Shown: positions 452 through 57,713 of the stretch, one piece after another
How positions within the stretch are numbered: position 1 is the stretch's first letter
How the letters are laid out: every line of letters starts with the position of its first letter
From: Pseudanabaena sp. UWO311
Lineage (GTDB): Bacteria > Cyanobacteriota > Cyanobacteriia > Pseudanabaenales > Pseudanabaenaceae
Direction: 5' to 3'
Assembly: GCF_006937785.1 (NCBI RefSeq)
Contig: NZ_SJEE01000002.1
Location: 186,001 to 250,000, forward strand
DNA: 64,000 bases
The notes under the pieces: model-generated
Seen by the model: the letters and a program-made list of their open reading frames with translations, nothing else
Told to the model about the DNA's origin: nothing
Database searches by the model: none
Program-made: the position numbers and the translations under genes

Positions 452-667
452 TATAGCTAATGTCATACCAAAACACAAAATGGCGTAGCCATTTTGTGTT
501 TTAAAACCCTTACAGGGTTTGTTTTTTAATTCACAGTGTTGTCACACTTTTGTGAATTGGTATCACATGCCTTAGGACAAATCAAAACCCAAGAATTGGT
601 TGGCAGCGCTCCGCGCTGCCAACCAATTCTTGGGTTTTATGTCCTAGTGCATTTGGCGACAGCTATA
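452..667. mobile_element. Family-1 palindromic MITE-like element (TATAGCT...AGCTATA ends), interrupted by a family-2 element at 466-562
   Basis: Ends and core match copies at 27951-28064, 40630-40744 and 57598-57713; central perfect stem AAAACCCAAGAATTGGTTGGCAGCGC... Confidence 0.75.
466..562. mobile_element. Family-2 MITE-like element (TACCAA...TTGGTA) nested in family 1, flanked by TCA/TCA
   Basis: TIR TACCAAAACAC.../...GTGAATTGGTA; 3-bp direct repeat TCA at 463-465 and 563-565; removal restores the uninterrupted family-1 spacing. Confidence 0.75.
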
Positions 668-5910: not shown

Positions 5911-6011
5911 TTCCAAAACACAAAATGGCGTATCCATTTTGTGTTTTTAAAACCCTTACAGGGTTTGGTTTTTAATTCACGAAAGTGTGGCTACACTTTC
6001 GTGAATTGGTA
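5911..6011. mobile_element. Family-2 MITE-like element flanked by TTA/TTA
   Basis: ttccaaaacacaaaatggcgtatccattttgtgttttt...aattcacgaaagtgtggctacactttcgtgaattggta; direct repeats 5908-5910 and 6012-6014. Confidence 0.7.
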
Positions 6012-15957: not shown

Positions 15958-15958
15958 A

Positions 15959-16005
15959 ACCCAAAAGAGAATGGCGGCGCTTTGCGCCGCCATTCTCTTT
16001 TGGGT
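15959..16005. repeat. Perfect long palindrome with ACCCAAAAGA outer arm and GGCGGCGC core
   Basis: acccaaaagagaatggcggcgctttgcgccgccattctcttttgggt. Confidence 0.85.
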
Positions 16006-16112
16006 CTGAGCGCAAAGCGCTATAAGTCTAAAATTGATGTGGCGATCGCAATCTCTTGTGTTAACATCTGACGCTTAAAAGAGTCTAAATAGGGTGTAGT
16101 GAGGACATAAAG

Positions 16113-17235: not shown

Positions 17236-17427
17236 ATAAAACCCAAAAGATGAGAGGTTGCACAAAGTGTCGCTTCTCGTCTTTTGGGTTTTATGGCTAT
17301 ATTTTAGATCAGAAAAAGCTATATAGCGGTTTGAAAATCATTAGGTTATGAGTAAGTTTAGACAATATTGCCTTGCGATATTGCCTAAACTTATTTTGGC
17401 TTGAGTTGTGGAGAAATAGACTAAAAG

Positions 17428-18906: not shown

Positions 18907-19169
18907 TATAGTAGGTATGCTCAAAGCTGCACCAATAAGTATTTGAGAGTGCTACTTTCTCATTTTGCAAATAAAGATCTTTGGACAGTTTAATTTTTTG
19001 AGATAGGCGATCGCCTATCTCAAAAAAAATCATAAGGAGTATTACCAAAATGTGACATGGCATAGCCATTTTACGTTTTGGTGTAAATCATGACCTAAAG
19101 AGTGATGACAACTTGGAGAATTGTCATGAGATTCTGGTATGTTTGAGGTTCGCCGTTAGCTGACAATCC

Positions 19170-22148: not shown

Positions 22149-22192
22149 CTTTTATCTGCAAAGGTGCTGCATTGCAGCACCTTTGTTTTTAA

Positions 22193-22284
22193 TTCATAAA
22201 AGTGTGACAACACTTTTATGAATTAAAAACAAACTCTGTAAGGGTTTTAAAAACACAAAATGGCGTAGCCATTTTGTGTTTTTG
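22193..22284. mobile_element. Family-2 element, degenerate ends
   Basis: aattcataaaagtgtgacaacacttttatgaattaaaaacaaactctgtaagggttttaaaaacacaaaatggcgtagccattttgtgttttt. Confidence 0.6.
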
Positions 22285-22311
22285 TACTACATGGTTGTTG
22301 GAATATAAATT

Positions 22312-24118: not shown

Positions 24119-24318
24119 TACCAATTCACGAAAGTGTTCACACTTTTGTGAATTAAAAAACAAACCCAGTAAGGGTTTTAAGGAATAAAGATTAAATAAC
24201 ATGTGCAAATAAAACCCAAAATTGGTTCGGCGGGCGTAGCCCGCCGAACCAATTTTGGGTTTTATTAAATTTTCATTCCTAAAAACACAAAATGGTGTAG
24301 CCATTTTGTGTTTTGGTA
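24119..24318. mobile_element. Family-2 element flanked by TAA/TAA, interrupted by a family-3 element
   Basis: TACCAATTCACG...GTGTTTTGGTA; direct repeats 24116-24118 and 24319-24321. Confidence 0.75.
24182..24279. mobile_element. Family-3 palindromic element (GGAAT...ATTCC) nested in family 2, flanked by TAA/TAA
   Basis: TIR ggaataaagattaaataa / ttattaaattttcattcc; direct repeats 24179-24181 and 24280-24282; removal restores gggttttaaaaacacaaaatgg as in the copy at 22193-22284. Confidence 0.75.
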
Positions 24319-26323: not shown

Positions 26324-26439
26324 TATAGCTGTTGCCAAGTGTATGAGGTCATAAAACCCAAGAAGAGAATGGCGGCGCTTCGCGCCGCCATTCTCTTCTT
26401 GGGTTTTGATTTTGTCCTAACACAATCGACGGTAGCTAT
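26324..26439. mobile_element. Family-1 element, inverted orientation, variant middle stem
   Basis: tatagctgttgccaagtgtatgaggtcataaaacccaagaagagaatggcggcgc...gggttttgattttgtcctaacac...tagctat. Confidence 0.65.
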
Positions 26440-27950: not shown

Positions 27951-28064
27951 TATAGCTAATGTCACTTGTCTTAGGACAAATCAAAACCCAAGAATGTTTG
28001 GCGGTGCTCCGCGCCGCCAAACATTCTTGGGTTTTATGTCCTAGTCCACTTGGCGACAGCTATA
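27951..28064. mobile_element. Family-1 palindromic MITE-like element
   Basis: tatagctaatgtcacttgtcttaggacaaatcaaaacccaag...ttgggttttatgtcctagtccacttggcgacagctata. Confidence 0.75.
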
Positions 28065-40629: not shown

Positions 40630-40744
40630 TATAGTTGCAGTCACTTGTCTTAGGACAAATCAAAACCCAAGAATTGATTGGCGGCGCATCGCGCCGCCAA
40701 TCAATTCTTGGGTTTTACGTCCTAGTACATTGGCAACAGCTATA
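40630..40744. mobile_element. Family-1 palindromic MITE-like element
   Basis: tatagttgcagtcacttgtcttaggacaaatcaaaacccaagaattgattggcggcgc...gttttacgtcctagtacattggcaacagctata. Confidence 0.75.
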
Positions 40745-42355: not shown

Positions 42356-42455
42356 TACCAAAGCACAAAATGGCATAGCCATTTTGTGCTTTCAAACCCT
42401 TACTGGGTTTGGAGTTTAATTCATAAAAGTATTTTCACACTTTTGCGAATTGGTT
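42356..42455. mobile_element. Family-2 element, slightly degenerate right end
   Basis: taccaaagcacaaaatggcatagccattttgtgctttcaaacccttactgggttt...aattcataaaagtattttcacacttttgcgaattggtt. Confidence 0.6.
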
Positions 42456-47343: not shown

Positions 47344-47731
47344 AAGTAATACAAAAACATCAAATGGCTGAGCCATTTGATGTTTCTACAACCCTTGATG
47401 GGTTTGATCCTCAATTCACAAAAGTGTGGCGGGACTTTGGTGAAATGCTACATCGGAGTAAGCTTTGCTTAGACTGTAAAACCCAAAAGAGTAGTGGCGG
47501 CGCTACTCTTTTGGGTTTTATGCTCTAATTTGCTTTTTTATTCAAAACCAATTAGGGATTTTCAGCGCCGCAGGCGCTGAAAATCCCTAATTGGTTTCAG
47601 ATTACAATGAGTTATAAGAGCGCAGTAATGTAGGAAACCAATTTTTAGCGGCGTGGCTTTGCCACGCCACTAAAAATTGGTTCTTGATTAAATCGCAGAA
47701 TCATAACTTGGTAATTTTTGAGCACTAACCT

Positions 47732-50922: not shown

Positions 50923-51348
50923 AGGTAGGGAATACTCCTCACGACTGAACGGTTTCTTCAGCGATCACCCACCCATGAGCAAAGATGGGGCTCAACACAC
51001 TTTTTTAATTACCTCAAGAACTTTAGATAGCACTCTTGAGGCTTTTAGACTAATTAGCATTTTACTTTAGCACTGTATCGTAACTTATCGTTACAAAGTG
51101 TTAAACATCCTATTAGGCTAGCAAAAAGTCTAGCTATGCAAATTATTTGGATGGATGATACTACATATTTACAGATATAGAGAATTTCGCAAATTGGCAA
51201 TTCTCTATATCTGTAAATATGTATTGCCCTACGCTCAAGTGCAAGCTAAACAACCCAAAAACACGAGGGGCGGCGCTTAGCGCCGCCCCTCGTGTTTTTT
51301 TGGTTTTAATTCAGATGGTGCAACATATAAAATCAAGTTAACGTCAAC

Positions 51349-54746: not shown

Positions 54747-54776
54747 TACAAAAAATGGCATAGCCATTTTTTTGTA
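54747..54776. repeat. Minimal family-2-like hairpin flanked by TAA/TAA
   Basis: taa|tacaaaaaatggcatagccatttttttgta|taa. Confidence 0.5.
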
Positions 54777-57597: not shown

Positions 57598-57713
57598 TAT
57601 AGCTAATGTCACTTGTCTTAGGACAAATCAAAATCCAAGAATTGGTTGGCGGCGCGGAGCGCCGCCAACCAATTCTTGGATTTTATGTCCTAGTACATTT
57701 GGCGACAGCTATA
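57598..57713. mobile_element. Family-1 palindromic MITE-like element
   Basis: tatagctaatgtcacttgtcttaggacaaatcaaaatccaagaattggttggcggcgcggagcgccgccaaccaattcttggattttatgtcctagtacatttggcgacagctata. Confidence 0.8.

Follow-up and report, generated by a model that had tools for sequence, protein, structure and literature searches.

A MITE nested within a MITE in Pseudanabaena, a three-base TNA target duplication, and hairpins that template switching may rewrite

How did one palindromic element come to lie inside another at positions 452 to 667 of the window (the whole stretch of 64 000 nucleotides of Pseudanabaena sp. UWO311 analysed here), what moved the two elements, and what has happened to their hairpins since? 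Read directly, the letters from 452 to 667 run TATAGCTAATG, TCA (463-465), an insert beginning with TACCAAAACAC at 466 and ending with GTGAATTGGTA at 562, a second TCA (563-565), and then CATGCCTTAGGACAAATC onwards to AGCTATA. A previous sequence-only reading placed an element of one family (F2) within an element of another (F1) with a TCA target duplication, and this is exact: F2 (466-562) lies within F1 (452-667), with TCA on either side. Taking out the 97 bp and one TCA restores, as was also claimed, an F1 element of 116 bp, and the reconstructed element matches all three of the F1 copies named in that reading (27951-28064, 40630-40744 and 57598-57713). Its right part has 88-90% identity to these intact copies, and its left 14 nt are identical in two of the three (27951 and 57598). 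The uninterrupted copies contain a single TCA, compared with two around F2, and a fourth F1 match, beyond the three named previously, is located at 26324-26439. The F2 copy at 466-562 has lost 4 bp (97 versus 101), and the F1 element has its own target duplication, TA (452-453 and 666-667). The feature is a MITE within a MITE, in which F2 entered the F1 left terminal repeat at a TCA and duplicated these 3 bp. The nesting of MITEs is in itself ordinary. The features of the window are as follows.

452-465, forward strand: left part of the F1 MITE, with a TA copy (452-453), the terminal repeat TATAGCTAATG and the left TCA; 14 nt identical at 27951 and 57598
463-465, no strand: left TCA target duplication of F2, from the sequence; single TCA in intact F1 copies
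466-562, forward strand: F2 MITE, 97 bp, three hairpins, ends TACCAA/TTGGTA (from the sequence, copies, folding and TNA duplications)
470-502, forward strand: F2 hairpin 1, 15-bp perfect stem with loop GTA at 485-487, by folding; the loop-inverting hairpin
504-520, forward strand: F2 hairpin 2 (AAACCCTTACAGGGTTT), by folding
528-558, forward strand: F2 hairpin 3, at the right end, holding the 4-bp loss, by folding and comparison of copies
563-565, no strand: right TCA target duplication of F2, from the sequence
563-667, forward strand: right part of F1, with a 26-bp perfect hairpin core (584-609/613-638), the right terminal repeat and a TA copy (666-667)
27951-28064, forward strand: intact F1 copy with one TCA, serving as a built-in empty site
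40630-40744, forward strand: intact F1 copy
57598-57713, forward strand: intact F1 copy with a single TCA
26324-26439, reverse strand: divergent F1 copy
5911-6011, forward strand: F2 copy with a TTA duplication
42356-42455, forward strand: degenerate F2 copy
22191-22286, reverse strand: F2 copy without the normal right end
24119-24318, reverse strand: F2 copy split at a TA by a third MITE, F3 (around 24180-24283, ends TAGGAAT/ATTCCTA)
47350-47450, forward strand: divergent F2 copy

Solo hairpins resembling F2 hairpin 1 are also present in the window, at 54747-54776 (30 bp, with TAA on both sides) and 19043-19082. The F1 core AAAACCCAA...TTGGGTTTT recurs with other ends at 15958-16007, 17238-17297, 24206-24265, 47480-47518 and 51251-51316, in the manner of a shared module, and also resembles a bidirectional terminator. 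Most contigs with a 90-96% identical match to the cobT-like gene beside the feature are named Pseudanabaena. The search for an orthologous empty site at 452-667 itself found none, the cobT neighbourhood not being syntenic, and the flank of locus L001 had no ortholog in genomes G016 or G018. Downstream of a cobT-like gene in another Pseudanabaena (L137), a different hairpin element has split an F1-like element.

Elhai et al. reportedly described very small mobile repeats from cyanobacteria in 2008, and Nezha is said to belong with the IS630-type cyanobacterial insertion sequences and their MITEs. F2 has the properties of a MITE: it is short (about 101 bp; range 97-102 bp), non-coding and multi-copy, with terminal inverted repeats (TACCAA..TTGGTA ends). 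The genome of the organism contains 76 F2 matches, with about 40 full copies (40 of the 221 candidates scored), and 56 F1 matches, numbers well above any chance expectation. Of the genomes tested, all 26 from Pseudanabaena contain F2 and all 32 from other genera lack it. Folded as DNA, F2 forms three end-to-end hairpins (z = -8.3 versus shuffles) and F1 one long hairpin (z = -11.7). The genome of Anabaena sp. 90 has about 150 MITE copies, short, structured and for the most part intergenic, and no matching insertion sequence (IS) (PMC3542288). F2 is likewise short and structured, and no matching IS was detected in its own genome; it differs in having a matching IS in relatives, orthologous empty sites and nested copies. 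REP palindromes (PMC3733652) are, like F2, short and abundant bacterial palindromes with small loops, whereas F2 has terminal inverted repeats, target duplications and a matching DDE element. Classification of F2 as a REP/RAYT element (a GTAG/CGTC-tagged single hairpin with no target duplication) was ruled out by the terminal repeats and TNA duplications.

That F2 has been mobile, as the earlier reading held, is borne out by the many further copies that have TACCAA/TTGGTA ends and lie between TNA duplications, and by exact empty sites in relatives. Identical 3-base flanks were found in 98 of 130 F2 copies; in the set with long flanks, each of the 97 copies flanked by the same three bases on both sides carries TNA, which is TAA or TTA in 90. 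When the flanks of F2 copies were joined, relatives proved to have the junction exactly as predicted, with a single target copy and no F2 (for example L003/L376, L005/L328, L021/L363, L027/L361, L281/L392 and L282/L395). At the L005 locus F2 is present in G000 and G016, and the site is empty in G018. Because of the intact F1 copies and these empty sites, the TNA flanks cannot be a TA duplication within a longer target.

GTNAC occurs at nine of 85 F2 pre-insertion sites, with nested sites left out of the test, compared with 3% of TNA sites (p = 0.001), and GTCAC is present in the F1 left terminal repeat. This same TCA of F1 has been struck by F2 at three loci that keep the duplication intact (the window copy, L086 of G016 and L259 of G022); F2 sequences and flanks differ among the three, which are therefore independent copies. 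F2 also lies at that TCA in G000 and G016 (L275/L385), with bases lost on one side, and the G018 locus (L382) is without F2. The GTNAC preference probably plays a role in the nesting of F2 within F1. Pre-existing hairpins were rejected as a target rule, target folding energy being no stronger than background. At L011 (1501-1601) and its G016 ortholog, L379, different F2 copies occupy a shared TTA in opposing orientations; the double insertion suggests a repeated target, and the pair, being independent insertions, was not counted as an inversion.

The sequence-only reading had also taken F2 to be the younger element. This is true of the two copies at 452-667. It does not extend to the families, since L032, L037 and L057 have F1 inside F2 at TTTT-TA-AAACCC, and F3 (ends TAGGAAT/ATTCCTA, with an AAAACCC-type hairpin core) splits the window F2 copy at around 24180-24283 and another F2 copy in L131. 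With F1 and F3 both found inside F2, neither F1 nor F2 is simply younger; the order seen at 452-667 does not hold at family level, and F1 and F2 overlap in time. Other insertions of F2 lie elsewhere in F1 (L012 and L066). The L012 insert has an identical F2 counterpart elsewhere in the genome (L009), a sign of recent movement.

In agreement with the earlier statement that the window has no transposase gene, searches for DDE_3, DDE_Tnp_1 and the F2 transposase gave no match there. We screened the transposase loci of five well-assembled relatives for ends matching those of F2. A full-length IS of this kind, the possibility of which had been raised for the host genome and its relatives, was found in the relatives but not in the organism's own assembly. 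It is around 1.14 kb long, belongs to the IS630 family, has ends TACCAAATCACAAAAGAGAGGC, and shows a TNA duplication in all four intact copies. In G022 (L219, 1474-2616) its ends are TACCAAATCACAAAAGAGAGGCTACAGATAG and TACCAAAGCACAAAGAAGAGGCTACAGATAG and the duplication is TTA; the equivalents are L294 (TTA), L295 (TAA) and L298 (TAA), and the four share the ends TACCAAATCACAAAAGAGAGGCnACAGATAG. Its protein matches NCBIfam IS630 NF033545 (134 and 130 bits) and Pfam DDE_3 PF13358 (61-62 bits). The match between the IS and F2 ends is about 15-17 nt only. Close matches to the transposase occur in about a dozen relatives, and none was detected in the organism's own genome (an assembly of 61 contigs). 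Thus, with a matching IS in relatives and none in its own assembly, mobilisation of F2 in trans by an IS630-type transposase is plausible. The IS630 element of the organism's own genome (L088) was ruled out as the partner by its ends, TTACAGC. Fragments of the F2-type transposase lie at contig edges in G011 (C11/C36), G016 (C14) and G018 (C81), as is expected of multi-copy, possibly active elements in draft genomes. In G023, the F2-type IS of L295 (1145-2135) lies between the arms of a 16-bp inverted repeat (ATTGATTGAGAAAATG).

The duplication described for IS630 elements is TA, and the 3-base TNA found both in the IS copies and in F2 is thus a variant. ISY100, the studied cyanobacterial element of IS630 type, targets TA almost exclusively and duplicates it (PMC2170065). 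The systems examined here resemble ISY100 and related cyanobacterial IS and MITEs in their DDE_3/IS630 transposase, short terminal repeats and non-coding derivatives (PMC2170065), and F1 also resembles them in duplicating TA. In contrast, F2 and its matching IS duplicate the 3-bp TNA, and F2 has three hairpins, with each end self-folding. Other IS630-type elements in the genomes examined have TA-type ends, and no TNA-duplicating IS630 element was found in the literature searched. For F1, the TA flanks and the insertions into F2 at TTTT-TA-AAACCC establish a TA duplication. An IS630-type element in G021 (L094) has TATAGC...TAGGACA ends with the 28-nt layout of F1, and its middle differs. The candidate F1 partner is therefore IS630-like at the family level only, and is less certain than that of F2.

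Several other accounts of the nesting and of the mobilisation can be weighed against these data. Misassembly is possible in repeats, but that the locus is an assembly artefact or a chance juxtaposition of hairpins is extremely improbable, given the exact duplication, the intact F1 copies, the equivalent nested copies in other genomes, and the orthologous loci that are either empty or filled. Occupation of the same F1 TCA in several genomes would also be expected if F1 with F2 inside it were a composite of single origin that then spread as a unit. This is very unlikely, because the F2 copies of the window, L086 and L259 differ and each is nearest to an F2 outside F1, because the host flanks differ, and because F2 is found elsewhere in F1 (L012 and L066). 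As for the transposase, TNA/TWA duplications are typical of some IS5-group elements, and F2 might have been moved by an IS5/Harbinger-like transposase, its likeness to the ends of the IS630 element being convergent. We consider this unlikely: the IS4/IS5-type elements of the five relatives (PF01609 DDE_Tnp_1 and PF13359 DDE_Tnp_4) have different ends, which excluded them as the F2 partner, whereas in the IS630-type element the TACCAA ends and the TNA duplication occur together.

The hairpins themselves vary in a distinctive manner. The loop of hairpin 1 is GTA in 61 copies and TAC in 17, GCA in 12 and TGC in three, ATA in seven and TAT in two, and ACA and TGT in one each. Twenty-four copies have a loop at distance 3 from the modal GTA, 23 of them being reverse complements of other observed loops, and only four copies are at distance 2. 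The loops of hairpin 3 form similar pairs (TGTC/GACA, TGCC/GGCA, AGCC/GGCT and AGTC/GACT), as do those of F1 (GGA/TCC and GAA/TTC). The column-shuffle control of loops ignores shared ancestry, and weight was therefore placed on orthologous loci. There the loop of hairpin 1 is inverted in place in four of 10 orthologous pairs. The inversion in L005/L331 comprises five changes in 11 bp, with none elsewhere in the element and three in 360 in the flanks; the loop is also inverted in place in L282/L374, and in L280/L372 together with one substitution. In the fourth pair, the 41-bp hairpin of L002 has as its ortholog in L378 the exact reverse complement, arm mismatch included, and the coupled changes 8A>G and 34T>C were found in L002/L378 and L017/L366. 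Loops inverted in place with few intermediates, as template switching predicts, are thus present.

Further evidence comes from a search for two-ended 41-bp hairpins, in which 31 cases were fetched (a sample biased by design). Such hairpins with direct TNA duplications include L424, L430, L434, L411, L002 and L086. In about ten, the flanks continue the palindrome for 7-12 nt, and arms are extended by host flank in L425, L420, L432, L440, L410 and L441. In L420, L440 and L432 the outer F2 ends keep the TNA duplication, and GGTA and the complement of the host's left flank have taken the place of the interior. In L425 eight host-specific bases (TGAGTCGC) lie within the element, and the right end is truncated. 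In some of these cases the return point overlaps F2 sequence, so that the copied stretch is partly ambiguous. Arms homogenised or extended by copying from the other side, a further outcome of template switching, are accordingly observed. Insertion of 41-bp units into palindromic targets was rejected as the source of the inverted flanks: a site with perfect inverted flanks can carry no direct TNA duplication, since that would need a middle base identical to its complement.

In RNA hairpins, loop inversions and compensating changes have been explained by template switching (PMC8794818), and inverted flanks with host copying, together with loop inversions, are outcomes expected of that process. 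The F2 changes are the same in kind; here they affect dispersed bacterial mobile elements, with arms extended into unique host flanks. Judged from the sequences compared, the in-place inversions, compensating arm changes and host-flank arm extensions are best explained by template switching during replication. Perfect, covarying hairpins could instead reflect selection on RNA or DNA structure combined with gene conversion between copies: compensating changes are the classical evidence for structure, and variant arms (AAAGCAC) in other copies could serve as donors. Gene conversion between copies could account for some of the loop and paired changes; it does not explain the reverse complement in L002/L378 or the copying of host flanks. 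Selection with conversion predicts neither exact reverse-complement loops with few intermediates, nor an exact reverse complement in place that keeps its arm mismatch, nor host-locus-specific sequence inside the element (L425, L420 and L432), and we give this explanation a small, though not negligible, probability.

Our overall reading, which we hold with considerable confidence, is that of a MITE within a MITE in which an IS630-family transposase, duplicating the 3-bp TNA (mostly TAA/TTA) and favouring GTNAC, would move F2 in trans, and a TA-type IS630 element would move F1; after insertion, replication would switch templates between hairpin arms, keeping the arms perfect while the arm sequence drifts. 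More tentatively, a template switch at an F2 end hairpin may give rise to a two-ended, self-moving unit of 41 bp, that is, to the birth of a MITE without internal deletion. In one step, the switch would copy the F2 terminus (TACC to GGTA) and the adjoining host bases into the interior, and units with two complete ends would then move on their own. The extended-arm F2 copies (L420, L440 and L432) and the solo TNA-flanked units (L002, L086, L411, L424, L430 and L434) are consistent with this course of events; the solo form could also be a simple internal deletion of F2. No origin of MITEs by template switching was found in the literature searched.

The interest of the locus lies in the TNA duplication of IS630 type and in the genus-wide hairpin dynamics, not in the nesting. 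In the intact F1 copies the window supplies its own empty sites, and these prove that a system of the IS630 family, described as TA-specific, duplicates the 3-bp TNA. With hundreds of dispersed copies, a known ancestral form and orthologous pairs, the F2 family lets template switching be studied as a natural experiment, by counting inversions, arm repairs and arm extensions. It makes testable how perfect hairpins are kept up in mobile elements, and whether template switching yields new minimal elements.
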